From Isoetes taiwanensis (lineage: Eukaryota; Streptophyta; Lycopodiopsida; Isoetales; Isoetaceae): a stretch of 64,000 bases of DNA. Position numbers and translations under genes: made by a program. Positions 9,682 through 29,261 of the stretch are shown here, piece by piece. Within the stretch, counting starts at the first letter, position 1. Every line of letters begins with the position of its first letter. Below the pieces are notes generated by a model, which saw nothing but the letters and a program-made list of their open reading frames with translations, searched no databases and was not told where the DNA came from. Location: the NCBI GenBank assembly GCA_021234155.1, contig JAJEKV010000105.1:2705506-2769505 (forward strand). Reading direction: 5' to 3'.

Positions 9682-10395
9682 TCTCCTCTTCTCTCCTCTC
9701 ATCTACTCTATTATATTCTCTGTACTTCTAACATTCACAAAATAGTCACTCATTTGAATAAGCAACATTTCCAAGAGTTCATATCAAGAAATGAAAGGTA
9801 TATGATACTTTTTGCGCAAATACAAAAGCATGCCTCTTGTCTTCACAAGTAGGCCTACGGCAACATGTACATCTAATTTGCTTCTATGTAGCTCCATTCA
9901 TCCTCCAGACTTCTACTTCAAGCTTGTGAGAAACCAATCCCCAATCCACTCATGTTTGGAATATATGCTTTCTCTTTCTTATTCCAACCCTAACATTCTT
10001 GCTCAGTGTATAATATCATGAATCAACTTCTTGCCTATAGAATTCCATCTCTATGTCAAGGTTAATTTGGAGCTTAGCTATGGCTTTCTCCACCACAATA
10101 CTCTTATGCCAATAGTAATTGGTTGCAGCTTACCTCAATTATCAACTTTGCCACCCTTTCCTTTAATTTCCTTTATCTGCTTGACCCATTGACTCAATAA
10201 GTAACTAATGAGAAAGTGTTTGTCCTCTGCTCAAAAACACAGGACTATTCTTGCTATACAAGGGCAAGTCCCATGGGAATAATCCTAAGCCCCATAGGAA
10301 GAACCCTAAAAAGAGCATGCCGAAGAAGAGACCAAGGGATCCCAAGGTGTGAGGTCACCACGGCCTTGGAGCATGAGTCTCCCACAATAAACAAA

Positions 10396-10419
10396 GTTTA
10401 AAATGAAACGCACTTATTT
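10396..10419 (+). repeat. Left terminal-inverted-repeat-like sequence
   Basis: A 24-base block beginning GTTTAAAATGAAACGC is present in perfect reverse complement at 29225-29248. Weaker similarity continues outward (AATAAACAAAG versus AATAACAAGG) and inward (AAAGATTCC). The two copies enclose all GGTATAAATTTATACC palindromes and the DUF7869 and methyltransferase genes, so they are candidate element ends. No clear target-site duplication was found. Confidence 0.45.
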
Positions 10420-10619
10420 GCTGCAAACGCACTTCAAAAGGAATCTTTGAAAGATTCCCTAAAATTCCCTTAAAAAGTCCATTTTTAAGATTTTTTTGTG
10501 ACAGGTGTGACAATTGAAGTAATTTAGGTACCATTTTTGAGGGGTTGATTGAACATAACTTTCATGCACAAATTTTAAATAGCAATTTTCATCCTCCTAA
10601 ACTAGAACCAATGTTGTCC

Positions 10620-10960
10620 CGTACGTGATACGTTCCGTACGTTTCGGACGTATTTTTTGAAAAAATACGTATTTTATACAATACGTTCTTAAAGTGCTTA
10701 AAATACGTTTTTTAAAAAAATTGAAAAAAAGCTTAAATATAACAAATTATGCAATATAAACACAAACAGACTGTTGGAAAGTTGGTTAGCATGTTTGTTT
10801 GCTATCTGGGAGGCCCAGGTTTGAATCCTACTGTGTGCAGATTGAGTCTGTTTTGAGAAAGGCGTAATACATTTTTTGAAAAAGCATTAAAGCGTATTTT
10901 TTAAAAATATTAATGCCATCTGACAGGAGAATGCGTATGCATTTTAGAACAAAAAAACTG
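10620..10960. repeat. TACGTATTTT-rich segment with tRNA-like boxes
   Basis: Repeated ATACGT/TACGTATTTT words at about 10625-10710 and 10870-10900 flank a segment with TGGTTAGCATG and GGTTTGAATCC at 10780-10835, which resemble pol III A and B boxes. Probably a SINE or an element end. Confidence 0.35.
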
Positions 10961-11499
10961 ACTAGAACAAAAAATAGTTACTTTTATAAAGTGTAGCAAA
11001 AAAGGGGCAATAAAAAATAGCAAGGGCAGTAGAGTTACAAAGAAGTGATATATTCAAGGTTGTGAAAATTGTACAAAATTATGAACAAAATTGTCAAAAA
11101 TATAGGACATTTTGACAAACACTCATCACCTGCACTTTCTGTTCTTTACATGTTCGAGTCATCGGACAAACTTACATTTTTGCGACAAGATCGGGGATGC
11201 ATCTCATCCTCAAACTCATTTAATCCACGATCACTTGAGCCTTCATCCTCGACTTCACTCTCAAACCTGGATGTACTTTCGAGCGATCTTCTTCCTCACT
11301 TTGTCTACAAGTGAGTCTTCATCATCATCTTTTTTGCCACCTTTCTAGGTTGTTTGTCTAATCCACATGCCGACCTTATTAAAGTTTGAGTGACCATACG
11401 TAACTTATTAGCGGCCGGTCAAGAACAAAGTCATATGCAAGAACCTTTACTTCAGCTAGATCTATGACAGCGGTGTGTTTGCTTTGGACTTTGCTCTCT

Positions 11500-13906
11500 T
11501 TCCCTCTGTTTTACCATCTCAAAGTATAACTCCCAATCGAAAGCATTGGCATTCGTTCTTTCTCGTCGATTGCACTTTTTAGTTGAGTGGGAATTCCATC
11601 CTCTCTTGTTACCTCCATTACTTTAGCTAGCGGAATGGCTTCCCGATTCATCATTATCGGTGGGACGACTATGAGCATTCCTTTACGAATCTCTCGGTGA
11701 ACCCGGATACTCGAGCAACTTGTTGTGCCGTGCGTCTGGGGCCAGTGTACATGACTCTGTCATCTTCATCTGAGCTAGCCAATATCTCTACATGTTCCTC
11801 TTGATTCTCAACTTGCACGAGGGAGAGTTTGCCTAGATGGCGAGTTGAATGTGCTGTTTCTTGACCTTGTAATGAAGCTTGCAACATGTCACGTTTGAAA
11901 AAAAGCGGGAGGCCACCATAAAAGCATCGCCTCCCCAAAGTGGTTAGAGCAGACTGAATACTTGTCTCAATATAATCCAATGATTTGTTTGAGTCAAATG
12001 CTCTTCCCTCCTTTTTACTCTTTGTGATTTCTTTCAAGCTTTTTAGAGGCATTTGCTCTGCAGAGAGCATGGAACTAGTATTGGGGATGGTGCGAACTCG
12101 CTGCTGGCCGCCTTTGCAAGGATATGGCATATTTCTTTCCTTGTAAGATGGCCTTGCCATCTTCAAGTGAAATTTTGATCGATGCTGAAATGTAATGTTT
12201 CTCAAGGGCTCAATAGCCGCGGTGACCCAGTTGATCTCTCCGAAAAATCCATTCTTTGAAATCATAAGTTTCTTCCAATAACTTCGATGTCGGGACGAGG
12301 ATTGTAAGAATCTTGGATAACCTCAATCATTCTTTGGTAGGTTGAGAGCTTTTTCGAGCAAGGCGTTTAGAGAACCTATTGAATATCGATCAATTTGATC
12401 GTGTGTATGACCAACAAGCGTGAAACCAATCTTCACCTTCTTGAAGATTTGTTTCTCTACTAGCATAGCACAGTAAGAAAACAATGCCTGATTCTTATTT
12501 TCCCTTGTCGTGTTGTCTAGCTGAAGATATAGAACCGGTGGTATATGTTCTAGATTGGAAAGAAGCTTATTCAATATTGTGATAGTGAGATTTGGATCAG
12601 CATGAATGTTTGGATAATTCAAAAATGCCTTGCGATAGTTTTCCATTAAATACCATAGCACCGACAACATGCGGATGTATGAAATCTTCTTTCAAGAAAC
12701 ATCCTTAGGCACATTGACAAAATGTGGTAGGGTGGTCTTCTTACGGTCCATTCCATCAATAACAACCGATATGTAGTTGAGTGGTTGTTCCAGTGCTTTC
12801 TTCCTATGTTTTGTCAATTTTCTCCTTTCCAAAGATTGTTGTTCTCTGTGCTTGTTTAGTTTCTCCTTCAACGATCCGAAATGAAAATATGTTTAGGAAA
12901 GAACCTACTTTTAAGTAGAACTAGGCAAGAACACGTCACGGAAGCTTACTTTTAGTGTGAAGTGTCCTTGCATTTTGTCTCGAGCTTTTAATTCAGAGCA
13001 TGTAGCACAAACAGGACATCGGTGCTTTCTAGGAATGGACACGCGAGAAAACTCTTTTTCTAGAGCCGCGATGAAGTAAGAGTAGCAGACATGGCGTTCT
13101 CGGCCTCAACACACATGTCCTTATAATTATCGTAGACTTCACGTTTCGTGAAGTTGTCACTCAAGTGGTACATGGGGCTGTTAGGGAGTTTTCATAAGAC
13201 TCCTTAAAGAAACCTTCCATCCGGGAAACACATTGAAGGGCGCAGTGCGGATATACCTCTGAATGGCGGTAGTCATTAATGCACGGATTCTTGTCAAAGC
13301 CTTTTCTTGAGGCGGTCAAATTCGTCTGCTTTGCCTAAAGCATGAATCAATTTGAAGGTCGTTTGGCGGGCGGTGTGGCCACCAGTTGTGTAAGTAAACT
13401 TCTCACCATAATCGGCCTAATATTGAAGGCTAAGTAGCCCCTTTGGTCTAGCGAGTCATTGAAGCGTAACTATCGCGAATCAGCCTCAATTCCTTTAGTC
13501 CAATCTTAAGCAAACAACGTTGAGAACAACGATTGCTTTGTATGTGTTGCCCTCAAGTGGGCCTCGTCCATGAGTTTCTTTCTTCTAACGGTTGTACATG
13601 CTTTCTTGTGTAAGTTAAGCTTAAGATTCTTACTTGCAGGGGGCTTTGAATTCAAACATGGAGTCTTGTGGCTTTGGTAGGTCCTCGTGAGAGAGATCAA
13701 CATGAGGTGTTTCTTAAATGCGAGAGATCAACATGAGGTGTACTTGTAGATCTTTGAGAGGTTTGGTGTGGGCAAGTCACGGGGGAGGTGCTTTCCCTCT
13801 CTCGGGGAAAAAGTGTCGAGGTTGGTGGCGTAGTTGGCCAGCTCTGAAGTGTCGTAGAACACGGGGGAGTTGCGTGTGTTGCTGCTCCCACTTGTTGTAG
13901 TACCAT
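11500..13906 (-). pseudogene. DUF7869-type transposon-associated protein, frame-broken
   Basis: Segments in order on the minus strand are collinear with DUF7869 proteins. They are: GEKFTYTTGGHTARQTTFK (~13400), REVYDNYKDMCVEAENAMSA (~13150), RKHRCPVCATCSELKA with a Cys-rich knuckle (~13010), an intron 12949-12866, YISVVIDGMDRKKTTLPHF (~12750), VLYLQLDNTTRENKNQALF (~12500), VGHTHDQIDRY (~12390), and WVTAAIEPLRNITFQHRSKF (~12220). The D..D and G-H-T-H..I-D motifs are the family signature. DUF7869 proteins are uncharacterised but occur in many copies in plant, algal and metazoan genomes in transposon-like loci; a transposase-like role is inference. Frame changes occur near 12690 and 12266-12322, and a stop follows 11669. 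The 5' end is uncertain; an ATG lies at 13906. It diverges from the methyltransferase gene. Confidence 0.7.
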
Positions 13907-14301
13907 TTAGCGAAATAGATTGAGTTGGCGTGATTTGCCTCAGGGGGGAGGGAGCCTACGGTGGACTATGGGCGGCGTACTAAAATGAAGCTGGAGGAGG
14001 TAGTCCAGGCTCTCTAGCTTTGTGGTGGAGTAAAAGCGCATTGGTGGGGGGCAAGCGGCGTTGGGAGGGCGGGGGTGTGGTGAAGTAAATTAGGCTGGTG
14101 GTGGAAGCCGAGGGTGGTGCGTCTTTGGAGTAAACTCAACAGAGCTGGGGGTTTGAATGCCGGGAGGTAGAATATTAAGTGGCTACTTCACGGTGTCTGT
14201 TGAGGAGGTGTGAAAGTCATTGCGGGAGGAAGCACTGCGAACATGAGTTGGAGGGAGGTTCTTTTTCTCGAGCCATACCGAGAAAGTTAAGCGTCACACT
14301 A

Positions 14302-14477
14302 TATATAAATTTATCGACGAGAAGAGCGAGCCGGTATAAATTTATACAGAGATGGTATAAATTTATCTGAGGAAGAACAACTTAAAGGCGGGAACCGTAT
14401 AAATTTATCTGAGAGATGGTTTAAATTTATCTGAGAGGAGGGCAACATAGAGCGTAAAGCGGTATAAATTTTATCTG
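14302..14477. repeat. Palindrome array P1 in the shared upstream region
   Basis: Six copies of the GGTATAAATTTATACC family start at 14302, 14333, 14354, 14396, 14418 and 14461, most with the variant right half TTTATCTGAG. Spacings are 31, 21, 42, 22 and 43 bases, all close to multiples of 10.5. The array lies between the divergent DUF7869 gene and the TATA box of the methyltransferase gene. Confidence 0.8.
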
Positions 14478-14614
14478 AAAACTCACGAGACACTTGTATT
14501 GAAAACTTTATGGGGCTATATTTGGCTTGGCACTTAGCGGAGAGGTACTTAAGCCCGGCGCCGGCCACCCTATTTTCTATATCGCGACTTGGAGTCGAAG
14601 CTCATTGGTGCGGC

Positions 14615-14621
14615 TTATATA
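14615..14621 (+). promoter_or_regulatory. TATA box before the predicted first exon
   Basis: TTATATA lies about 57 bases upstream of an ATG at 14672 that is followed at once by a GTAAGT donor. It is the best candidate promoter for the ParB-methyltransferase gene. Confidence 0.4.
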
Positions 14622-14671
14622 CCCCCCCCCTTATTTGCTCTCGAGGGCGTCTATCGCGAGTCCATACGATC

Positions 14672-14679
14672 ATGGCCAC
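14672..14679 (+). CDS. Predicted 8-nt coding first exon of the ParB-methyltransferase gene
   Basis: ATGGCCAC is followed by GTAAGT (donor at 14680). Joined to the acceptor ending GTGTCAG at 21176, it reads M-A-T-T-P-K-I-K-F in the frame of the next exon. The predicted intron (14680-21176) holds palindrome arrays at both ends and a 5.8-kb insertion in the middle. The alternative is that translation begins at the ATG at 21166 with no upstream exon. Direct transcript evidence would be needed; frame agreement alone has a one-in-three chance. Confidence 0.35.
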
Positions 14680-14747
14680 GTAAGTCTACTATCCGTCTTG
14701 TTCTAGTTTCTCTTTTGTTTTAATGCATTTAGAGTGTAAGCGCCCAC

Positions 14748-15048
14748 GGTATAAATTTATACCGAGTATGGCTCTGAGTGGGGTATAAATTTATACGCCC
14801 GAACGCGGCGGTATAAATTTATCTACGTTCGAACCACGGTCGGTATAAATTTATACATAAAGTGTTACTGGGTGGTATAAATTTATACCATTTCGAGTTG
14901 AACCACGGCGGTATAAATTTATACCGCTCCAGAGCCATATCGGTATAAATTTATACCGCTCGAGCACGAGCGGTATAAATTCATACCGTTCCAGAACACT
15001 TGCGGTATAAATTTATACCGAATGTCTTCTGGAACGGTATAAATTTAT
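14748..15048. repeat. Palindrome array P2, 32-bp period (left part of intron 1)
   Basis: Ten copies start at 14748, 14782, 14810, 14842, 14874, 14910, 14942, 14972, 15004 and 15036, with a mean spacing of exactly 32 bases. Most are the perfect palindrome GGTATAAATTTATACC. Spacers are GC-rich and several pair as reverse complements, for example GTTCCAGAACACTTGC with GAATGTCTTCTGGAAC. The last copy is cut after TTTAT at 15048. Confidence 0.85.
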
Positions 15049-15051
15049 GAC

Positions 15052-16960
15052 ATGTGATATGAGGGCCAATGAATGGCCCAATATTGGAGCGTTTTTGTGC
15101 TCACGCCCTAAGGGGCCCCCGTTTCCCTCTCCCTTATCATGTTTTTGTAAATATTTTTACGTATTTTAATAGATATTTAAGCTTGCACTCAAAAAAAAAA
15201 AAAACTAGCAAAAAGGCACGCCAGAGGCCATAGAAAGTAAAGGCGCAAGAGAGTTAGGGCAAGGTAATTGGATAAAAGATGATTGTGTTAGGGCAAAATT
15301 GTATTGATTTTTATTGTCCATGGTTGAAACAGCATATGTTGTTTATATGATGCCCCTTCTTTTAAGATACTAGTATTTCTTAGTTTTGGGAGGGCAGGAT
15401 ATGAGGTTGTTGTAGCCGTTTTTTGTTGTGTTGTAAAGGTTTACGTAATGTCTTTCATTTTCATTTGCCTTTTTCTTGCTTTTGGTTTCTTCTAAGAGGT
15501 CGATGTGGAAGTTTTTTTTTTTGTACAGTTTGTGCTTGTTTGTTGTTAAGTTTGTTTTTTATCCTACGTATTTCTTGTTGTTCTTATTTATCATTGTCAT
15601 TGTCAATCCAACTCATAAGTAGAGTTAGGCAAAAACAAATTGGATGTATGGTAGTAAGCAACGGTGGTCAAACTTACAAACACGAACACTTGGTTGATCA
15701 GTCAATACAACTGCAAGCAAAAGTTCCTGTTCAACCATGTCATCTTTGACTTAAAAATGTCAATACCTATTCTATATGCCTCAGATGTGCTGTCAGAGTT
15801 GTTCACTTGCATAGATAAAAGAAAACATGGATAAGGAAACAATTGGGAATCCAACATAGCATATTGCCATAAAATCCGCTATTTGAATGCAATCAAAGAT
15901 GGGAAGACTAGTGATGATGCACCAGTATGACACTATTTAGAGCATGTGCACCATCCAGGAGATGGACAAGACATATTAGTATGGCTGCAAATGCATATTA
16001 GTCAGGTGCACTGGCAATATTCCCTACAGTAACATTCATATGTTGTTTTTCATGGTTTTTTGTTGTACTTTTTAAACGGCAAAGCACACACTCAACCAGC
16101 AAGTGTTATTAGACCTTAGCTTCTATATTAGAATTTTCTTGGAAATTGTTGCATATATGTGCGATATTGTCTGCTGTCGTGTCAGATCATTTATGCGAGC
16201 CAAGGTTGGCACGGCTATCATAGGATAATTGGTTTGACATGCCAGATAAGCCTGCTTCTTGTATTCTGCTTCATCTATGAAGTTGACAACATATATAGCT
16301 GGCTGAATATTCTTATCTGAATGCATATTTATTGCAAAATTCTAGAATACAAAATATCTGGTCAAATGTGAACAACTATCAAGCTCTTGAGGAATATTGC
16401 TTGAAAGATTGTTTGAGCTCAGAAACGTTATTTCCAGAAACAAGCATTGCCAAACTTCCTCCCTTTGGCATCATATATTCTTGTCCATTGATTATTGTTG
16501 CATCACAATGTTGTCCTGAAAAAAGAATATAAATTGATGAGAACATAAAACACAAGTAGCAAATTTGCAATTCAGGGTTATGCTTAATTTAGCAATGCTT
16601 AATTTATCCCAACCATAGCGTAAACATGGCATTGTGGAACTCTGGCCAAGTTCGATATAAAGCTAAGCAAAGCCAGCCATATACCTAAAAACAGCAGATG
16701 CCTTAAGCACATGTGAGAAGCCTTATTTATGTCCATAAAACTAGGAGTTACTTGCAACAATACTTGCCAGCATGTAACAGTTATTAGAAGTGGAAAAATT
16801 CCTGATTCAAGCTGAACCATGAAATGGGTAGAGGAGAACACTATGGTAAGATAAATAAATAATAAGCAATATTTTATAATCGAGTAGAAAGCCATACTGG
16901 TCAATCTACTATCTACTGACCACTTATCTGCATGTAATCTTGATAAAGTTTTCCCAAACT
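15052..16960. other. Left part of the insertion, no gene seen
   Basis: AT-rich sequence with an internal A-run at 15191-15204. Open frames on both strands are short and unrecognisable. Confidence 0.4.
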
Positions 16961-16962
16961 TC

Positions 16963-18177
16963 ATCTGCACACTTTATGTCTATCAAAAAAATGAGTGCAA
17001 GAGTAATGAGACGGTATTTGAGGATCTGAGAGAGGCCTTAGAAGTTCTTCTGATGCTCTATTATCCTGCTGCAGGAAGAATACTGTACAATGACAAAACT
17101 GGCCATCCTGAGTTGGCTTGTTTTGCACAAGAAGCTATGATGGTGGAGGCTTCAACTCATTTTACAATAGAAGATTTGGGTAATTTTAGTGAAGGAAATC
17201 CTGCATTGAAGAAACTTGTTTGGCATTTACCTTTTGTTGAAGACAGCCCATGTCCCTTGACTTGCTATTCTTGTATTCAATATGTTACTTCTTTGTGAAA
17301 TAAAGAGTTTGAGTTATTTTGGTTCTTCAACCATTTAGGTCACCAAATTTGCATATGGAGGATTTTGTATTGGGCTTGGAGCAAGCCATGAGCTCTTTGA
17401 TGGTCCAAGTTGCTTTAAATTCCTTTCTGACTGGTCAAGGATAGTTAGAAAAGTATCAGTATCTGAAATAGAAGTGCCTACACATAATAGAGAGATCATG
17501 AAACCAAGACCATCAGAAATGACACCACACAAGTTGGAAGAATGTTTCATGAAGAGATTTGAAGGAATACCCATCCTTAGAAACAACAAGCATGAGAAGC
17601 AATGGGAAAAGACAGTTGCAGAGTCCGCAAATGCAAAACTGGCCCAAGTCTTTTGAGGTGAATAATCAAATGATTGAAGTTCTGAGGAAAAGGGCCATGG
17701 AAGGAGGGCGTTTAAAATTACGCTCTACATTTGATATTCTGACAGCTCATTCATGGCTTTCAAGGATCAAAGCACTAGAAATGAAACCTACAGAAAGAAT
17801 TTTGCTGCAGTTTCCAGTTAATGGCCGGCAACCCCCCAACAAATGCAAAGTTCATAGGTAATGCATCCATCACATGCTTTTATAACTCCACAGTTGAAGA
17901 AATATTAGAATCTCCATTTCATAGTATTGTAAAAATGGTCCAAATGGATAAAAACAGAGTTTCAGATTCATATATTTGGGACTTTGTCAATGCCATAAGT
18001 ATTATGGATAAGCAGGTCTGCCTTTCTTTGAGAGAAACCACTGTCGTGATAGGCTGGACCGGTTGGGGAGGTGCAATATTTGGTACCATTGTTTATTTGA
18101 CTTTGGATAAGATCTATCTACTTCCTGGTGGTCCAAAAGGCTGTGTTTGGGTGACAGTAGGGTTCTTGAGTGAGTGA
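16963..18177 (+). pseudogene. BAHD (HXXXD-type) acyltransferase pseudogene
   Basis: BAHD enzymes transfer acyl groups from acyl-CoA to alcohols or amines in cytosolic specialised metabolism. Visible blocks in order are: TLYVYQK and LMLYYPAAGRILYND (family YYPLAGR block, ~17050), VTKFAYGGFCIGLGASHELFDG with the catalytic H-E-L-F-D (His ~17386, Asp ~17398), FEVNNQMIEVLRKRAMEG (~17657), STFDILTAHSWLSRI (~17729), LLQFPVNGR (~17800) and GNASITCFYNSTVEEI (~17858). A short intron at about 17282-17338 fits. Frame breaks occur near 17650 and 17828. The structural DFGWG motif is decayed to GWTGWGG (~18046), and the N-terminal ~45 residues are missing. It lies wholly inside the 5.8-kb insertion, so it is probably a captured gene copy. 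Confidence 0.75.
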
Positions 18178-18179
18178 GG

Positions 18180-20840
18180 TCAAGGCGAATGACATAAATT
18201 CTGTAGGTCCGGAAGTTTGCATCCATTCAAAAACTAGATGTAAAGAAGAGTGACGGATTTAACGGACTAGGATATGATCTTCTTGCCATGAAAACATATT
18301 CCTTCAGTATAGAATATAGATTATTTTGAGCTTTAAGTCTTAGCACTTCCTTGCTAAGCTGTAGCTAAAGATGTCACATCAAATAAAGAATGCCAGCCAT
18401 TAGTGCAGTGGCACTGCAATTGTTGTCTGGTTTACAAGATCTTACGTTTCATCTCATGATTGAGTATGTCAATCTGAAAGTAATGCAAGCCATCACAGAG
18501 TCTTAACAGTATGCTGCTTAACCAGAATGTGTAGCAGCTTCTTATTGGAAGCTGTCTAGCATTTTTAACCAAATGTGAATGAGAATAAATAAGTTTGAAA
18601 AATAAGATGAAACGTAAGATCTTGTAAGATCTTTGAAAAATAAGATGGGGGTTAAGATTGTGCCTTAAAACTAGATGGATTACTATCCTAGGCGCATGTC
18701 AGAAGTGGAAGAATGGGTGGCAATGCTTATCTTTGATCATTTTGGTGTTAGATGAATTAGCTTGCAGATTATGTATCAATGGCAAATGTAACTGTCTAGG
18801 TGTTGCTGTAAGTTTGCCCGAAACATGGAGTTTCTCTCTGAATACCATGACATAAGCTCAGCATACTACAGCAGGTCCATACGCTGCCATAAACTACCAC
18901 TTTGCAACAATGGGTTAAATATGGTATCCAACTTCCACAAAATATTGCAACAAGTCCATTGCAATAAGAGATGTTTTTAACGCTAGGCATCTTTGATGAA
19001 CAAAAATATACAAATTTGAACGAGCAAAAAGAGATTACACAGAGTTCTTCAAAAAAAAAAAAAGAGAGATTACACATAACTTACTTTCCAAAATGTCTTA
19101 CTAAATGAAGTGAAGGTATCTTTCCTTAGTAAGATTAAGAAGCACAAGCCATCCCTTCTTTGATAAAATGTAAAATTTAACCCGCGTAAAGAACCAACTG
19201 ATATACTGTTCAATGTAAAAATTAATACTACGAGAATGCCAGGTTCCGAGAAAGAAAACTAGCATATATCTGAGGGTCTGTCAGTATGAGCAGATATTTT
19301 GTAAGTTAGCATTTTTCCCATCTCAGCTCCATCGTCTAAGTTGTTATCTGCACTACCTTTCAAATTTATGCAAACATTTCTGATATATCTGCTTCTTTTT
19401 CTACAGGTTAACAAAAAACCCAAGGCGAGTATGCATAGCCTTGGATTTGTAAGGAATGAGGATGCAAATCATGAAAGGAAAAGAAAAGTCAGGTCGTTTG
19501 GAGGATCCTTTGGAAATTTGCTTCATGAGTTGATGCCTTATGTAGAGGTCCAATTCCGAATACACCAAAATCTTGAAAAGTGTACTCTTACAAGAAGTGC
19601 TAGAAAGGATGCCTATTTGCACGAATATTTCTTGCACATGATTATACATGTTTATGGTGCAGAAACGAGAAAATAGAAAGGAAAAGATTACCTAGATGAA
19701 GAAATCCTTAGGAGAGATGGAGCTTGAAAAACTGTCAATGTGTTCCATTAGTATTGTTGCGCTTGAGCTGGAGAGTCCAATTAGAGCCTCTCCTCCAAAC
19801 TCAGCTTCTGCCAATGCATGACCTTCAAGACGCACAATCTTCCCCACGACTCAAATCTCTTGGTCTTTTTAGTCTAGATCGGAAGGCAAAGAAAATATGG
19901 CAAGGAAAGATCTACAGATTCCGCTATGGTACTGATTAGAGGAGGAAATGAGCAAATCCTGCAAGTATATGAGAATGTGAGAAAAGGCAATGCCATCACC
20001 TTATGACTTTCTGGCACTTCACATGCCAATAGGTATCTTCATGATCTCTTATTTACAACCTGTGCACTTGCAAAACCGTGTTAGGTGAATGTCGTTGCAG
20101 AATACCTTTCATTCAACAAGACCAAATCTAGACTTTAACATGCAAAATAATGTTTCTATGTTCTGTCTGAATGAAACTATGTTTCTATGTTCTATGTTTC
20201 TATGCAAGTACCTCATCCGAATTCATAAAGATGCTTGCACAACAAACCACGATGTGTAGAGAAGCCAATACCTTTTAAATAACGTCCTTCTTCTTGACCT
20301 ATCTAATCCCAGTCCATCTTCAACGGCACCAACAATATGCAAAGCCTAACTTCCTTGAAAGTGAAATTGCTTTTCTGAGAATCTATGTCCTGCAACACAT
20401 GAGCAATCTAGATGGCAATGCTCCATTTTTACCAAATCCTGGTTTCGCATTGGGCCAAACGTGATGGCTATGTAGTTTTGCATTAGGCCAGACGTGATGG
20501 CTATTTTATCCGCTAGGTTTGAAAGAGATTGAGATGAAGACACGAATGGTAAGTAAGGAACAATTACTATTGGTACGACAGCCGAGCAAATGATGCAAGC
20601 AAGTAAGTAAATAAATGGTAGTAGAAGCTTGTTGGGAGGCAGGCACGCGTGCTTTCCGACGTCTTTTAGCATCTCCGTGATCATTTTTGGCTCTTTCCTA
20701 ATTTCCCTGGCCCTAGATCTACAAAAATAAAGATCTAACGGAGAATATTAAGACACATCAGATTTTGCTGATGTGGAGATGCTACGTGGATAGCCTAGAA
20801 TTGCAAGGAGGGTTGCACGCTTGGTTAGGCTGGCGTGCTA
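18180..20840. other. Right part of the insertion, no firm gene
   Basis: Mostly non-coding. A frame at 19408-19676 follows a possible acceptor (TTCTACAG) and reads VNKKPKASMHSLGFVRNED and so on; I do not recognise it. TTCTATGTTTCTATG repeats occur at about 20150-20205, and a small stem CACATCAG...CTGATGTG at about 20755-20780. Confidence 0.35.
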
Positions 20841-20856
20841 AAAAAAAAAAAATTAT

Positions 20857-20951
20857 ACCGCTCGTGCTCGGGGCGTATAAATTTATACCGACTGTGTTCT
20901 GGAACGGTATAAATTTATACCGCTCGTGCTCGGGGCGTATAAATTTATACC
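20857..20951. repeat. Right part of palindrome array P2
   Basis: The remnant ACCG of a split copy is followed by copies starting at 20874, 20906 and 20936. Spacers GCTCGTGCTCGGGG and GACTGTGTTCTGGAAC are inverted relatives of spacers in 14958-15003, showing both halves come from one array. Confidence 0.75.
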
Positions 20952-21543
20952 GATTCAGAACCATTTCGGAATCTTGGTGTCTAGTGCTTAAAGAATGGTC
21001 CCGAACCTTAATATTTTAGTAATATTGTTGTGTTTTAAGCTTAAATGACACAAATAAAGTGTTAATTTAGTGTGGATTTTATGCCCTTTCAGCCTCTGTT
21101 TTTACTGTTTTTGTGTTTCAAAAAGTCGAAAAAGGTTCTGTTTCTTATGTAAAAATGGGTTTTTTATGCGTGTCAGAACCCCCAAGATCAAGTTTGTACA
21201 CAGAGGCCAATCATCAAAGGCTGCACCATTAGAGCCACAGACATACGAACTAAAAGATCAGACATGGTACGTCCACAGGGGCGCAAGAGAGAGCAAACCA
21301 ACTGAGGCGTACCTGTACTTGTGTAAAGAGACAGGGAAGGGCAAGTACAAGTCTGATGATTATTACCCTGCTGGCGAAGTTGTAAACCTTGTTGCTACAG
21401 AAAACGACGATGAAATTTTAATGAAGTGCATGCATGACAAAGGGGAAGTCTTCTATGTTCTTAGTAGTAAAATGCTTAGAATAAGCATGTGCAAACCCAA
21501 AGACGTGCATGACTACATATCTGAAAATTACAAGGGCGGCTAT

Positions 21544-21613
21544 GTAAGTTATTCTTAGTGCCTTTACGTATAAATTTATACCGTCATTCTCCTAACTTAA
21601 CCCTGGATTACAG
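21544..21613 (+). other. Intron 2 of the methyltransferase gene with one palindrome
   Basis: Donor GTAAGTTATT at 21544 and acceptor GGATTACAG ending 21613 give a 70-nt phase-0 intron joining frames exactly. It contains one palindrome copy (CGTATAAATTTATACC at 21567). Confidence 0.65.
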
Positions 21614-22148
21614 GATATAGTAGACATTTTGATGTCAGTAGTGCTTTGTGAACAAAAAGTGTTGGTCAAGGGTCTATGGTACCCCATTCCTAACGAAGAG
21701 GAAGAGAAAAACGAGGAAGTAGAAGAAGAAGAGGAAGAGGAAGAGAAAGAGGAGGAACCAGTGGTAACAAAGGGAAAGGGTAGGAAGCATTCCCTGGTAG
21801 TAGATACAAAGCCTCCTACCAAAAAAAAATCTAGAACAACAAAGTCCTTGACTATAGAGGAGTCAGCAGAAGCTCTTCAGAAGGCTCCTGGAGCAGCTAT
21901 TGTTGTGAAGCCCGTAGATAAGTCAAGTGCTATTCTCAAGCGGGTTAATGAAACTAAACTGCTCAAACAAACTATTTCTTTGACATTGAGCACTATAAAA
22001 AGGCCGCCTAAGAATGAAGATGGGGTCAGAGTGCTTGGTCAGGAAGTCAGTATGCGCGGCACATGTGGCTATCTTGAAGCAAAAGAATGAGAAGAAATCC
22101 TCATGCCCATGTGTCGCCACTAGTTGTAATGGTGGGATGAGAGTCGGT

Positions 22149-22587
22149 GCAAACCAACCGAAAAGATTACAAAAAGGCTGACTTCGAAGATTACACATAT
22201 TATGTACTTGGAGGCACACATAGTTACAAAGCATGGAAGGAACTTTCAAAAGAAGAAACCCGTAATGAAGTTTGGAAGACTGTGGAAGCACATATCTACG
22301 TGGGAGTCACAGACGAGGAAGCAAAGGTCATTGCCGTGAGTCATAATCTCGACAATGACTTCAGACTAAAAATGAGCCTGATAGACAAGATCCGCTTCAT
22401 GCACAGGGAATACGTAGAGTTCAAACAAATGCATGGGGAGGACTTCAAAAAACAAAAAAACAAACTCCAAGAACTTCGAGAAGCTTGTGTCACAGAGTGC
22501 TGCCTCAGCTATGATTCAGACAAGAAGCCCATAATGGCTGTGAAGCAGTACGACAATTACTTCCAGCTTGCCTTCAGAGATGGTCAA
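22149..22587 (+). CDS. ParB-like domain exon
   Basis: This exon gives the clearest ParB/Srx-type signature: a G-G-T-H-S box followed by A-W-K-E-L, then a V-x-V-G-V-T-D-E-E-A block and an S-H-N motif. In ParB-like domains the G-x-H-R/S box binds nucleotide or forms the active core; nuclease or CTPase activity cannot be inferred here. No helix-turn-helix of chromosomal ParB is evident. The exon ends at a GTAAGT donor (22588). No ATG is in frame at its start, so it is internal. Confidence 0.6.
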
Positions 22588-23043
22588 GTAAGTAAAAGCT
22601 TTAATTTAGTCCTCTGTAGTATGCTAAGCATAGCTTAATTTGTGTATTAACACCGAACATTGTAATAATTTATACCGTGCCACGGAAGACCAAGGAAGAC
22701 CAGCCACGGTATAAATTTATACCGTGCCTGGTCGCGGTGTACATTTATACCATGGCGAGTCACGGTTTGAATTTAAACCTTGCCTGGGCACAGTATAAAT
22801 TTATACCGTGCGGAGGTAGCGGTTTAAATTTATACCGTGCCCAGGCACGGTATAAATTTATACCGCGACCAGGCACGGTATAAATTTATACCGTGACTCG
22901 CCATGGTATAAATTTATACCGCGACCAGGCACGGTATAAATTTATACCGTGCCTGGTCTTGCGTGTGGAATTAGACAGTAGACTGTGCAACAAACACTTG
23001 TACGCCATTCAACATTAAATTACTTGTGTTCGATCATTCACAG
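22588..23043 (+). other. Intron 3 of the methyltransferase gene
   Basis: Donor GTAAGTAAAAGC at 22588 and acceptor CATTCACAG ending 23043 give a phase-0 intron that joins the ParB-like exon to VWDLQERIFCMFEDGE. It contains palindrome array P3. Confidence 0.65.
22661..22948. repeat. Palindrome array P3, exact 28-bp period, hairpin-forming
   Basis: Copies start at 22661 (degenerate), 22708, 22736, 22764, 22792, 22821, 22849, 22877, 22905 and 22933, so spacing is 28 bases with one 29 after the first step. The 12-13-nt spacers are related as reverse complements: GTGCCTGGTCGC with GCGACCAGGCAC, ATGGCGAGTCAC with GTGACTCGCCAT, and TTGCCTGGGCAC with GTGCCCAGGCAC. Because the repeat is self-complementary and the spacers pair across a centre near 22837-22848, the whole array can form one long hairpin in RNA or cruciform DNA. 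Confidence 0.85.
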
Positions 23044-23279
23044 GTGTGGGATCTTCAGGAAAGAATATTTTGCATGTTCGAAGATGGTGAGCTGAAAGAA
23101 CAATCTAGCTCTGCCGGAAAAAAACCAAAAAAAGGTGGTGAAGCAAAACAAAAAAACATGAGCATTGTACCATGGACGCAGCTACAGGGTTTAAAAAGCA
23201 AAGAAATTTTTGTAAGACTACTAGAAAAAGTTGTGGCCAAAGAATTCACTCTAGACGAAATGGCCAAAGAAGCTAAGAT

Positions 23280-23348
23280 GTAAGCCACATTTCCCATGTC
23301 GTGTTCTTTTTTCCCTGATTTTGTCTGACAACATTTTTTCCTCTGCAG
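23280..23348 (+). other. Intron 4 of the methyltransferase gene, without palindrome
   Basis: Donor GTAAGCCACA and acceptor CTCTGCAG bound a 69-nt intron. Joining gives AAG AT|T CAG (K-I-Q) in frame. It is the one predicted intron of this gene lacking the palindrome. Confidence 0.6.
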
Positions 23349-23657
23349 TCAGAAAGACATTGTCACCTGCCAGGCAGAGCTAATGAAGCAACTAAACATG
23401 GAGGACTGGGAGGAGTGCAAGGCTTTGTATCCAACTTCTACTTCAGATAGTATTATCAGAGAGCACGCTGTTAACTTCAGTGGCTGGGTTAAGTTTTTCA
23501 GAAAATACTCTTTGTTTTCGTGCCTTTGTCTCACAGTTTTCTTACAAAACAAGAAGAAAGGGCTACCGACAGGATTTTTAAACCTGGTTCGTAGGGCCAA
23601 GGAGGAGAGGCAGAGACTGAAGGCAGTTGAGCAGGGAAAAGAAGTCGGCACAAGCAG

Positions 23658-26600
23658 TTTTTTTTTTTTGAAGAACTGTGTCAGCAATATATTAAAAGAA
23701 TGGTAATGTTACAAAGCAAGTGAGGAGGAAGGAGAACTGCCCCAAAGAGACAGTGATACCTCGACACTCCACAACAACTGCAACTCTACTGCTGTACAAA
23801 CTGACCATCACCATCTACCACACCCAAGAAGTCCCGCCAAATGGAAAACTTCCGCTCTACTAATCCCGGGAACACCAAAAAGCTTTGAAATAGCTTGTAC
23901 CTGAGTCGAGGAATCAGAGAGGTCGCAGTTGCTTTGAATCCCCGAAAGATCCACAACCGCCGCTTCCAAATCAACCACACCAACCAAGCAGCGCCTGACA
24001 GATGCAAGGCTTGCTGCCCATCTGGCGGCCAAGCACCGGGATATACCACATGAAGCGGCAATTGTTGGCTATTCAATCTCACGAAGCGAGCCATGACCCA
24101 ATCCCGGGCAACCCGCAAGTGAGGGCATAAAACCGGAACAATGCTCCACGGTCTCACGATGAAGGCCACAACAAGGGCAAAGAGGGCTCACACCCGGCCT
24201 AAGCCCGACTCACAAGGACATTCACGATCTGATACGGTGCACCACCGCCACATAATAACCGAACCTTGATTGGGGAAGTGAGCTCCATGTCCACGTCAAA
24301 CCGAAGCCATCGAGAACCCGAAGCTGCGAGAGACCACTTGCACGAAGGGGCGAGTGTCATGAATAGCCAACACCCGGTAACAAGACCGCACAAAACAAGA
24401 AGATACAACATCCGGATGAACCTTCCAAACTGCACCACCACGGCACCACGAGGGACTATAGGTATGTGTAGCGGAATACTCCCCGCCACTTGTTCCCGGA
24501 TATAGGTCCACCGTCCTTCAGGAAAGCGAGCTCGAAAAGAACTCCCCACGAAGCTAGCTGATCATCCCAATACCAATCCTCCAAGGTGAGCACGACAGCT
24601 CGCCTCCAACGGGCCTGCGTCCGAAAGCATGCCTGATGGCAGCCAAAGGGCAAATCACGCGGGGAGGTAGAGGAACCCACAAGAAAGGAGAAGAGTGGTG
24701 ATAAACCGAGGCATAATCTAGCTGGAAGAGCACACGCACGTGATCCCAAGCCCGCAACACCCCCGGTGTGAGAAAAGGGGATGCATGTGGAAAGGCGGGA
24801 GACCATACAACAAAGTGATTGCCGGGGCAACTCTACATGCCTGGGGCGACTTTCCAAATGCCACACAATGGCGAAGAGATTGCCACAATAGTGCCGCACC
24901 AGGAGAAGATGCTCCATCTGCGAGAATGCTCCAAATAAACTTAGAGACCAACACCTTACTATGCGGTGCCAAATCCAGAATGGCCAAGCCCCCATCCTCC
25001 TGGGCGGAGACACTTCCACCAAGCCACTTTAACAACCGCCCTTCATCATCCCGCCCCCACAAAATTTCGAACAATCTTATCCAAAGCACGTATCTTACCC
25101 TCGGAGCTAACATCGCAGATCTTTGTATACACATGAGTGCTACAAAGCACCGACTTGGCAATAGTGATCCTACGCCGCCATGGACAACTTGCTACCCTTC
25201 CACCAATTGAGGTGTTTACGCAACCCCCGCAAAATCTCATCCCACACCCTCCCCATGGAAACATCCCTCCAAAGGGAATACCCAACGACTTAGTACACAC
25301 ATTACACGGAAGCACCTTCCAGGGAATAGAGCCAAACAAGGGGAGGCGGAGTCAAGCTGGGGCCCATAATGCGGAGCATTTACCCCAATTGGAGGAAGAA
25401 TGCACGAGGCCAAGGAGAAAGTATCCAGCAAACCCTTCACATTCCGCAAATTCCTCTCTTACGCCACCAAGAAGAGAAAAAGTGTCATCGGTGAACTGGT
25501 TAATAATCTTTGACTACCATCACGCATCCGAAGCCCATCCACCACCCCCTCCTCCCGCTGCAGCCAAAAACAAGCGGGGCGATTGCCTCCACAATCGTAA
25601 ACAAAAATGGTGCCAAAGGGCACCCCCGGCCTTACCCTCGCCTAAGGAGAAAAAGGCGGAGGGTTCACCACGCACACCACCGTAGCCGTGCTGACCTATG
25701 CGACTTCATGGATCTCTCGTAAAGCGTGGACCCAGCCCAACGCTAACATCATGGCAGACAAGAACTCCCAACGGACACTATCATAAGCTTTGGCAAAGTC
25801 AAGCTTAAGATAGGCAATGCCTTGACCTGTTCTCCTGGCCCAATAAAGGCCCTCATAAGCTGCGGCAACATTAGTCAAAATGTTCCTCCCAGGACAACCC
25901 AGACTGCACCTTACTAATGGAAGAAGTCAACACCGGCTTCAACTTCTCGGCCAGGGCTTTCACAATAATCTTGTACACAGAGGACAACAAGGATATAGGC
26001 CTCCAATCATTAATAGTAGAAGGCTGCTTAACCTTAGGAATCAAGGAAATGCATGCGGTATTCAAGATCCTATCCATGTGAGAAGACTGCAGCAACTCAA
26101 GATACACCTGGTACACAGACTCACCAGCCCACTCCCAATAAGTCTGAAAGAACTCCACAGGGATGCCATCCAGCCCAGGACATTTATCCTTGGCCATGCA
26201 CATACATGCCTCCGCTAAATCCTCTGGAGAGCTCACGCTCCAAGCTCTCACGTTGGTGAGGCAAAATAGATGGTTTAATGACCCCCAAAACAAGCTCCTG
26301 CATCTCTTGCTCATAGGGAAGAGTCGTTGCATAAAAACCCCGAGAAATGAGCATGCACATACCTCTGCAACTCGGCCGGGATCCTCCAAAGTCCGGCCAT
26401 CAAAGGCAAAGCAAGGGGCGCCATAGATCTTTGCATATCGCCACGCCTAGCTGCTCGAAGAACAACCGAACTTGTATCCCCCTCCTTCAACCAGGTAAGG
26501 GCTGTCTTCACACAGCGCCTCATGCACTTTAACCTGCTCCCAAAGCAACAATCTGTTGCAACATTTGCATTCTCCCTAATGCCATGGAAAGGCCGCTTTG

Positions 26601-27534
26601 CCCGAATCTTCTCAACTCGATAAAGACTATGCAACTCCTGCCGCTCGCCCGCACCGCAGCCGCCTACCAAAGACCTTAGCAAAGCGCTTCACCTCGCCAA
26701 CGGGTCACCATACCGGACATACCGCCGGAGATGAAAAGGTATCAAGCCACAACTCCTCGCGGCCTTCCGGGCCGAGAAAGCCCGATCGACCCGGTAGGGT
26801 GTTCAAAGCTAACACCGTCCGAGAAGGAGAGGCAACCGCACCACTATTTGGACAAAACACGAGGGTAATGATCGGAAATGGAGGTAGGCAGAATGTTACT
26901 CCGGGCGCAAAGAGGGCACACCATCCAATGCGCATGGGGAAGCATAGCACCCGGTCATGCCTAGCATACGCCCGGCCCGCACCAATCTGCCTATTACAAT
27001 AGGTGAAAGACAAGTCCCCCGGGGACCTCAACCAAGGCCAAATCACGCAACAAAGCGAGACCACCGGGTCCCTCTCAAATCCCTGCACAATTTGGGTGCG
27101 AGAACCAGGCGATCTTCTACTCGCTCTACCATATTGAAATCCCCTAAGAACAACCAAGCAACCACGCAACCCACCAAGGGCTCGCAGAACTTATTGGGTT
27201 GTGGCCCACAAAGCACCGAGAAGGCTGATTAGGGGCATAAACATTAACAATCCCCCACTCTTGCCCGCCCTCCAACCACTTAATTATTGCCCACCGACCA
27301 AACACATGCGGCGGTATGTGACTGCACATCCATCTTCCAAGCAATAAGAGTACCCCCACTAGTCCGCCCAGAAGAAGAAGCAATAAAGCCAAACTGCCTA
27401 CCAACCATATTCATGAGCTGGACATATCACCCCTCGGTGACACTTATGCTCTCGAATGCAAACAATATCGGGGACGCGAATCGCCGCCGGTGCCAAAAAG
27501 AAACCACGGGCCCTCTTACTACTAGAGGACCACA
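23658..27534 (-). mobile_element. L1-type non-LTR retrotransposon (LINE), degraded, antisense in a methylase exon
   Basis: Minus-strand order of parts: endonuclease (VPDIVCIREHKCHRG ~27470, WGIVNVYAPNQP ~27250, LGDFNMVE ~27130); reverse transcriptase (KDKCPGLDGIPVEFFQTYW ~26160, LIPKVKQP, DWRPISLL, LKLDFAKAYDSVRWEFL ~25790, QFTDDTF catalytic box ~25490); then a C-terminal region (GRDDEGRLLK, SKFIWSILADGA). A 12-base T-run at 23658-23669 is its poly(A) tail read on the + strand. Flanking TCGGCACAAGCAG (23645-23657) and TCGGCCAAGCGG (27535-27546) look like a diverged target-site duplication. Several frameshifts make it non-autonomous. It is much more GC-rich than its surroundings. Confidence 0.85.
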
Positions 27535-27544
27535 TCGGCCAAGC

Positions 27545-27878
27545 GGTTTTGACACCGATTATGAGCGATTTACAACATTCGGTCGGATTTGCTGTCAGTC
27601 TGTGGTTGTTCATGGGGATTGCACGAGGCTGGGAACTCTTTTGGACAAGCAAAATTATACATTGTGTATTGCAGACATTCCATACGGGTTCAAAATTAAG
27701 GATAGCACTTTCGACGAGGAGGCCTTCACGCACGTGCAAGTCCGTGCTTTTTTGGACGGCCTGAAGGAAATCACGACATCTGCAAACTGGAGGGTCATCA
27801 TTTTCATTCCGACCTGCGAGGCGATGTCGGTGCTTAAGCCAATGGGAGTTATGCATGAACGGGCCAAAACTGCGTATG
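27545..27878 (+). CDS. Methyltransferase motif IV exon (part after the LINE)
   Basis: The frame reads GFDTDYERFTTFGRICC, then VVVHGDCTRLGTLLDKQNYT, then LCIADIPYGFKI. The D-I-P-Y/F is the catalytic motif IV of amino-methyltransferases (D/N/S-P/I-P-Y/F), and the upstream H-G-D-C matches the conserved G-D segment before it. It continues in frame from the exon before the LINE (..KEVGTSS at 23657). It ends with a GTAAGC donor at 27879. Confidence 0.7.
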
Positions 27879-28196
27879 GTAAGCTTTGAATTTATTGCTT
27901 TTCTATTTACTGTAACACCACGGTATAAATTTATACCTCAGTCGCCTCGTGGTATAAATTTATACACCAAGGCAACTTCATTATAAATTTATACTGCAAG
28001 ACGACACGTGGTATAAGTTTTACAAACAAGGCAATGGTGGTATAAATTTATCTGACCACACCAGCTGAACTAACTTATTTTGTTCGTTTTCTTTCTACCA
28101 ATTTTTAATTGCTTTTTGTTTGGCGGGGCTAAAAACAAATGTCAAAGGACATGGTGGTGGTCGCGCTTAGTAAAACTTTTGAACATTTCCATATAG
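27879..28196 (+). other. Last intron of the methyltransferase gene
   Basis: Donor GTAAGCTTTG and acceptor TTCCATATAG define a phase-1 intron. Joining gives AYG followed by FYGSGHQKNHGSFQYSENE, the expected W/Y-x-K..G-F..E type segment after motif IV. It contains array P5. Confidence 0.6.
27922..28054. repeat. Palindrome array P5, 29-bp period
   Basis: Five copies start at 27922, 27951, 27980, 28010 and 28039 (spacing 29, 29, 30, 29). The first is perfect; later ones are decayed. Spacers differ from those in P2 and P3. One more degenerate copy lies at about 28793 downstream of the gene, with the TTTATCTGAG half found in P1. Confidence 0.75.
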
Positions 28197-28615
28197 GATT
28201 TTACGGTAGCGGACACCAAAAAAACCATGGTTCATTTCAATACAGCGAGAATGAGAAGAGTCCACCCCGCGCCTTTCGGTTTTAATTTGTTCTACAAAAA
28301 TTAAGAGACCCACAAATGACAAGGCGTTGTGGTATCTCATTACCGAAGCCACAGCGGCTAATTAATAACTTAATACGGTGGCTTTTTCGCCCGGCCCGGA
28401 TTCTAGATGCATTTTTCTGGCTCGGGCACCACAGTTTAGTTTTCGCCCTTAAGCGTGGGCGCAATGTTGTCTCCGTCGACAGACCCGGACAAAATAAGTT
28501 TCGCGGGACAAGGATAAGCTCTTGTGAATCCTTTCCGATGAAAAAGGCCCAGGAGCAAAAAGCGGTCTTTGGCGATGTTAAAGGCACATACACGCAATCC
28601 GGCCTCCACTACTAG

Positions 28616-28806
28616 CGGGAAGAAGAGATGAGGAGGTGGAGTTTGTCGACTGAGCTGTGGTGCTCGAGCGAGAAGCGGCACATGCACTGTACCATTGGAA
28701 TCGAAGCGGCGTCTACGCTATTGTACCCTCGCAAAGAGGCAGATCCTAAAGAGTGCGAGAGTCCTGTGGATTTGGGAAGAGCCACCTCTCATTATAAATT
28801 TATCTG
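28616..28806 (+). other. In-frame continuation after the methylase TAG
   Basis: After the TAG at 28613-28615 the same frame stays open for 63 codons (REEEMRRWSLSTELWCSSE and so on) to a TGA at 28804-28806 that lies inside a palindrome copy. It may be the original C-terminus, with the TAG a later nonsense change, or chance. Confidence 0.3.
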
Positions 28807-28809
28807 AGA

Positions 28810-29224
28810 CGATTATTATAAATTAACTTTCATTGTAAACTTTGTGCTAAGAATTTCAATATAATTTGATGAAGATTTTTAAACTGAAAGCTTTGTCTCT
28901 TCAACAATGCTTAATTAGAACAACTCTTTCTTGCTTTATGATTTCACACTCTTTCTCTTTCCTATGTTTGATTTTCTTAGTACTTATAATAAGCTTGCAA
29001 AAAGACAAACTATATTTCCTTCTATTTTCAACAGTAAATACTTATTGAGTTTTCAAATTTAATGTCTCTCTCCTCAAAACAACCATTTTTTTTCCCTCTT
29101 TTAAAAATGAAAAGTCTTCAAAAATGTTGCTTTTTTTGGGGTATTTCTAATGCTTTGCTCCTTATTTTGTCTGTTTTTTTCAAGTTTTCAATTTTTATAA
29201 AGGAATCTTTCAAACGCACTTCTT
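28810..29224. other. T-rich right end of the composite element, no gene
   Basis: AT-rich and T-biased sequence between the last palindrome copy and the right terminal-repeat-like sequence. No gene recognised. Confidence 0.4.
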
Positions 29225-29248
29225 AAATAAGTGCGTTTCATTTTAAAC
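29225..29248 (-). repeat. Right terminal-inverted-repeat-like sequence
   Basis: Perfect reverse complement of 10396-10419. Together with adjacent AAACGCACTT (29213-29222) it forms a local stem (AAACGCACTT...AAGTGCGTTT), while the left copy has AAACGCACTT twice in direct orientation. These subterminal repeats are typical of DNA-element ends. Confidence 0.45.
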
Positions 29249-29261
29249 CTTGTTATTAGGA

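Follow-up and report, generated by a model that had tools for sequence, protein, structure and literature searches.

The 64,000-nucleotide stretch of the Isoetes taiwanensis genome analysed here (hereafter the window) contains a degraded member of a family of cut-and-paste DNA transposons in this plant, bounded by terminal inverted repeats (TIRs) and carrying arrays of a private 16-bp palindrome (GGTATAAATTTATACC). Both uninterrupted copies that we read (reached through a palindrome cluster and through a coding exon, respectively) agree in layout: a DUF7869 transposase-like gene and a gene that combines a ParB-like part with a DNA methylase stand head to head, and the palindromes lie between the two genes and in the methylase introns. 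We assign a probability of roughly 0.6 to the whole explanation, namely a cut-and-paste family in which the ParB-like part reads the palindromes and the methylase marks the arrays.

The copy in the window spans positions 10390-29254 (18,865 bp, no strand assigned), as delimited by its inverted termini and by comparison with other copies, and includes three later insertions (349 bp, 5.8 kb and a 3.9-kb LINE). Its termini at 10390-10419 (plus strand, DUF7869 side, D end) and 29225-29254 (minus strand, ParB-methylase side, P end) are 30 bp long with 29 identical bases, begin with AACAA[A/G]GTTTAAAATG and have homologous ends in other copies; the 19-bp core of this repeat occurs within the window only at the two element ends, even when up to 3 mismatches are allowed. 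The 24-nt inverted ends described in an earlier note on this DNA are thus real, with their length understated. A TTAA duplication placed inside the terminal repeat was considered and dropped, since other copies put the ends at AACAA. Perfect 4-bp target site duplications (TSDs) flank 9 of the 11 two-ended copies (C2, C8, C16a, C16b, C919 and L065-L068), while the duplication is imperfect in the window copy (AATA/ATTA, 3 of 4 bases) and absent from C17; inverted termini bounding a unit in several copies, together with a TSD of fixed length, are what is expected of a TIR transposon. In the two-ended copies examined the D and P ends have the 30 bp in common and then diverge, and each such copy carries one end of either kind, which argues against the suggestion that the ends belong to an independent miniature inverted-repeat transposable element.

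The two uninterrupted full copies bear out the proposal that a single mobile unit of about 9 kb comprises the ends, the gene pair and the arrays. These are C16b (8,601 bp, TSD ACCC, 23 palindromes) and C919 (8,579 bp, TSD TTAA, reached via the ParB-like exon). Alignment of the window with C919 places the junctions of three large insertions in the window copy (10612-10960, 15049-20848 and 23662-27559), the second and third of which had been recognised in the earlier note and the first (349 bp, no strand assigned) overlooked. The 5.8-kb insertion (15049-20848, no strand assigned) holds pieces of a BAHD-type acyltransferase gene (PF02458 at 16888-17298, E 1.9e-15; a further match at 17785-18177 is below the cut-off). 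A poly-A run marks its right border, and it may be retrotransposed or captured host sequence. The LINE (23662-27559, minus strand) sits within the methylase gene, with an RVT_1 match below the cut-off at 25871-26446 (E 1.4e-4).

A scan of the host genome (1.66 Gb, 1,110 contigs) recovered 7,218 exact palindromes (reversed control 0) and 2,050 end sequences with at most 1 mismatch (control 0). The ParB-like exon gave 150 scored matches among 2,647 candidates, the one in the window among them; about three quarters of these matches, counted by row, lack an internal stop. From these we read ten palindrome clusters (the first in contig order among the sites listed, 20 kb each), six methylase loci (from ten chosen at about every 15th row of the ParB-like exon matches) and four short copies defined by their ends. 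Among the clusters, five have both ends (C2, C8, C16a, C16b and C17) and three have one (C5, C7 and C13); C4 holds methylase exons and a DUF7869 fragment with no terminal repeat recognised, and in C14 neither an end nor element coding sequence adjoins the palindromes, the only trace being a DUF7869 fragment nearly 10 kb off. An element end or element coding sequence therefore adjoins the palindromes in nine of the ten, so that the objection that the palindrome might occur genome-wide in unrelated places holds as to its wide occurrence and, C14 excepted, not as to its surroundings. C4 (L041-L042) represents a diverged element lineage without recognisable ends in which the palindrome is unchanged; a fragment there shares 87.5% identity with the metagenome protein P0007 over residues 1-72 of the latter, so that P0007 may itself stem from a related plant.

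The search of the host genome with methylase peptide, as the earlier note had advised, linked the gene to the other parts of the unit: all six loci sampled by the ParB-like exon contain palindromes (23, 17, 10, 8, 15 and 1 sites, the single site being at C1051), and five of them have at least one family end. A divergent DUF7869 gene is present at three of them, a fourth has a weak fragment oriented the other way, and two have no DUF7869 in the 6.5 kb upstream examined, which answers in part the question of whether the two genes lie apart in most loci. Counting all copies, DUF7869 and methylase sequences are on opposite strands in the window, C4, C16b, C919, C974 and C1051, an arrangement not seen in C920, C1045 and C1028. 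Incomplete copies are common. Among 100 listed end sites, all of them exact (a choice that favours better-kept copies), we picked by eye 24 facing neighbour pairs, of which 4 span 2.2 kb, 5 span 3.5-5.9 kb, 12 span 8.36-8.86 kb (known from end positions alone), 2 span 9.3-9.4 kb and 1 spans 16 kb; four of the nine pairs below 6 kb were read.

Within the window, the palindrome is confined to the element to a degree far from chance. With at most 2 mismatches there are 24 sites (expected 0.05), all within 14333-27966, and the inner 11-mer TATAAATTTAT has 49 matches (expected 0.2), all within 14304-28803, with none at 10390-14303, the stretch that holds the DUF7869 gene. Relaxing the threshold to 4 mismatches yields 36 sites, one of them in the 5.8-kb insertion (19214, 4 mismatches) and two outside the element (53155 with 4 mismatches and 54125 with 3); the earlier note's remark that the ends enclose every copy seen in the 64 kb accordingly stands for the closer matches. 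Judged by the genome-wide count, the palindrome is not confined to this locus. The sites are mostly 28-32 bp apart and lie between the two genes and in three recognised methylase introns. All are given on the plus strand: the left part of the intergenic array at 14333-15051 (a single site at 14333, TATAAATTTATCTG-type variants at 14354-14476 and the main array from 14748), its right part at 20874-20951 (3 sites, forming an inverted repeat with 14939-15018), a lone palindrome at 21567-21582 in the first intron seen of the methylase gene, an array at 22708-22948 in an intron further downstream (repeating about every 28 bp and belonging to an inverted repeat of 121 nt), an array found by palindrome search at 27922-28054 in the intron interrupting the methylase domain, and an 11-mer core site 3' of the gene at 28793-28803, whose counterpart is present in 5 of the 6 methylase-sampled copies. 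The arrays of the window thus double as large inverted repeats. Sites of another type (TATAAATTTATCTGA), altered in one palindrome half, recur near the start of the DUF7869 gene (14304-14476) and on the 3' side (28041 and 28793).

The arrays belong to the element in other copies as well. Seven two-ended units contain 100 palindromes inside and 0 in 127,955 flanking bases (at most 2 mismatches), the inside count being biased because six of the seven were reached via palindromes or are the window itself. A test without this selection is provided by the four 2.2-kb copies, as they were picked by their ends alone: they carry 9, 11, 8 and 10 palindromes, having lost the genes except for remnants of the first methylase exons. 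Furthermore, palindrome positions mostly correspond among the loci sampled by the ParB-like exon (intergenic, first intron, array intron, methylase-domain intron and 3' side). The lone first-intron palindrome is present at the same position in all five copies compared, with a pairwise identity of 92.5% as against 67% in its flanks (the sites being recognised by the palindrome core at up to 3 mismatches), and in the arrays the spacers have diverged and the core has not, a contrast that is partly circular since the core defined the sites.

The DUF7869 assignment of the earlier note was borne out by PF25273 (within 12323-12691, minus strand, E 1.1e-30). The main homologous stretch of this damaged gene lies at 11675-12871 on the minus strand (tblastn with residues 1-399 of P0007, 42% identity). 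Pfam scans of the window pieces returned DUF7869 and no MULE (MuDR) model at E ≤ 1. Structure models of DUF7869 resemble transposases and integrases, and we infer that the protein is the DDE/D transposase of the family.

The ParB-methylase gene (21175-28537, plus strand) comprises exon stretches at approximately 21175-21546, 21613-22080, 22084-22590, 23044-23280, 23353-23655, 27560-27883 and 28166-28537 (boundaries set by eye), the first two supported by copies in the host genome and those from 22084 on by Adiantum proteins, which match window stretches 22084-23748, 27557-27838 and 28166-28537. The earlier description of this gene as ParB-like plus methyltransferase is upheld for the methylase through its relatives and has no direct Pfam counterpart, as the window pieces gave no methylase or ParB match. 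A two-row alignment search found 47 relatives at E ≤ 0.1 (45 from Adiantum and two metagenomic), of which 16 match PF01555 (N6_N4_Mtase) and 25 contain the motif D[AT]PYGF; judged by these relatives, the methylase is of the N4/N6 type. The ParB-like part has no Pfam, PDB-profile or structural match, and contains the motifs GGTHS and LTDEEAK..A..HN, which resemble ParB. The model of the methylase protein P0025 is poor (pLDDT 47), and the fold search was uninformative, with weak methylase rows such as CcrM. The first exon (21175-21546) is a conserved stretch with no Pfam match, remnants of which persist in several short copies. None of the 47 relatives is listed with DUF7869, and the 17 matches at E ≤ 1e-10 included no DUF7869 partner from Adiantum, in a search whose range ended at proteins of about 648 aa. 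In Adiantum nelumboides, dozens of ParB-methylase proteins are annotated (P0001-P0006 and P0024-P0064), some in gene models fused to retroelement or host domains; these are probably unrecognised transposon genes in the fern annotation.

We ranked the coding parts of the family by median omega (Nei-Gojobori estimates between copies). The values are used as a rank only, because stop codons were passed over, many of the pairs approach saturation and individual copies enter more than one pair. The ParB-like exon is the lowest (0.03, 10 of 15 pairs usable), followed by the next exon (0.09), the first two exons and the methylase exon (0.16-0.20, the first exon at 0.16), the linker exon (0.40) and DUF7869 (0.57, 10 of 19 pairs usable). 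Of the pieces measured, the ParB-like part ranks as the most constrained and has evolved under strong purifying selection; the copy in the window is itself broken.

Taken together, these observations incline us, at somewhat better than even odds, to the view that the methylase and not the transposase reads the palindromes: their distribution tracks the methylase gene and leaves out the DUF7869 gene and the ends, and the strongest constraint falls on the ParB-like part. Under this hypothesis the ParB-like part would recognise the palindromes, the enzyme would load onto the arrays in all family members and would methylate adenine (N6) or cytosine (N4) there, and the mark might either keep the promoters and introns of the element from being silenced by the host, or else permit transposition or set its timing. 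The arrays would then act as an address label, which derivatives would have to retain in order to be served in trans. The full picture of a self-addressed transposon, in which a private palindrome is read, arrays are loaded even in members without genes and a 6mA or 4mC mark sets the DNA of the family apart from that of the host (leading to silencing escape or to control of transposition in trans), is more tentative, and we would rate it somewhat below an even chance.

The most serious competing explanation, which we nevertheless regard as unlikely, is that the palindromes bind the DUF7869 transposase, for assembly of the transposition complex or for self-regulation, with the ParB-methylase as an independent accessory. 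Internal repeats bound by an element's own proteins occur in other DNA transposons, and the four short copies, which retain ends and array with hardly any coding sequence, fit such a requirement in cis. On the other hand, the sites are not near the ends: they track the methylase gene (intergenic, introns, 3' side), and the strongest constraint falls on the ParB-like exon and not on DUF7869, though the latter is broken in several copies. Less probable still is recognition by a host transcription factor, for which the arrays would be promoters or enhancers of the divergent gene pair; the large array does lie between divergent genes and intronic enhancers are common in plants, yet one would then expect sites near host genes, and the flanks of the two-ended units hold none, just as family parts adjoin all but one of the first ten genome clusters. 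We hold it for quite improbable that the arrays are neutral palindromic satellites spread by slippage within the transposon: they are indeed tandem and inverted repeats that vary in number between copies, and against this speak the diverged spacers around an undiverged core (with the circularity mentioned above) and the retention of the lone, non-tandem first-intron site. A chance nesting of two unrelated elements (one with DUF7869, the other with the ParB-methylase), conceivable while a single locus was known and favoured by the two methylase loci without DUF7869 in the stretch examined, is virtually dismissed by the complete copies C16b and C919, each of which has the two genes, the ends and a TSD, and by the divergent pairs at C4, C974 and C1051.

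The expectation that this would be a new kind of system is weakened by the fact that ParB-methylase genes in transposons have been reported from algae. PMC12477816 describes Sola1-1_Ec32, a DNA transposon of 21.5 kb from Ectocarpus that carries a ParB-like/DNA-methyltransferase gene, and cites green and red algal cases; as in our family, the accessory gene is opposite in strand to the transposase and combines a ParB-like part (in our family a putative one) with an N4/N6-type methylase, and that paper suggests that its protein binds the sequence of its own transposon and modifies it. A word-stem search of that paper found no mention of palindromes. The present family differs by its land-plant host, its DUF7869 partner gene, its size of 8.6 kb, its private palindrome arrays and the retention of these in four end-picked derivatives. 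Its 4-bp target duplication would fit the Sola superfamily (a 4-bp TSD is given for Sola2 in PMC3627910). The closest working analogue for such private arrays is VANC21, the anti-silencing protein of Arabidopsis VANDAL21. According to sections of PMC5735166, it targets arrays of a short motif in intronic and intergenic sequence of its own family, and this motif is rare in other transposable elements and evolves through tandem repeat formation; arrays of an element-private motif in non-coding parts are likewise what we find here. VANDAL, however, is a MuDR-type element, whereas the window pieces match DUF7869, and VANC causes loss of DNA methylation through a motif (YAGTATTAY) arrayed in one orientation (same sections of PMC5735166), in contrast to the perfect palindrome of this family. 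Fungal DNA transposons with TET/JBP dioxygenases also carry a DNA base-modification enzyme; in passages of PMC12730594 these enzymes oxidise methylated bases, the transposases differ and palindrome arrays go unmentioned.

For the methylase part of the fern relatives, the best family matches are phage DNA methyltransferases (phrog_498 and phrog_67) and CcrM-like adenine methylases, and tblastn gave matches in 40 phage records (22-40% identity in the 20 rows listed out of 40). The likeness concerns the methylase part only, and the NCBIfam scores are far under the curated cut-offs. A viral origin was rejected: relatives of the two proteins were looked for in viral contigs by two scans based on patterns, and neither scan confirmed any. 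One exact palindrome each was present in 34 viral stretches, and no exact pair 8-22 bases apart was found in viral or prokaryotic contigs; a tblastn search of plasmids, for which the ParB-like part of P0038 served as query, gave no match at E ≤ 1. The palindrome was not found in translated form in 64 proteins, which says little since introns are removed.

ParB-methylase transposons are thus already known from algae, and what is new is the land-plant host, the DUF7869 partner and the private arrays as candidate targets. A literature search, largely of sources outside subscription journals, found no land-plant element of such a type, no target arrays and no use of the word DUF7869, and in the literature searched the recognition target of the algal ParB-methylase enzymes is not stated. 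Portions of PMC12695648 describe the existence and function of 6mA in eukaryotes as controversial. If our explanation is correct, the arrays would be, within that literature, the first identified target sites for the ParB-methylase class of transposon proteins. The family supplies a single candidate target of 16 bp, which has thousands of sites in this one genome and is retained by short derivatives, and so makes self-tagging by transposons, through a bacterial-type base mark that they may place on their own DNA, open to test.

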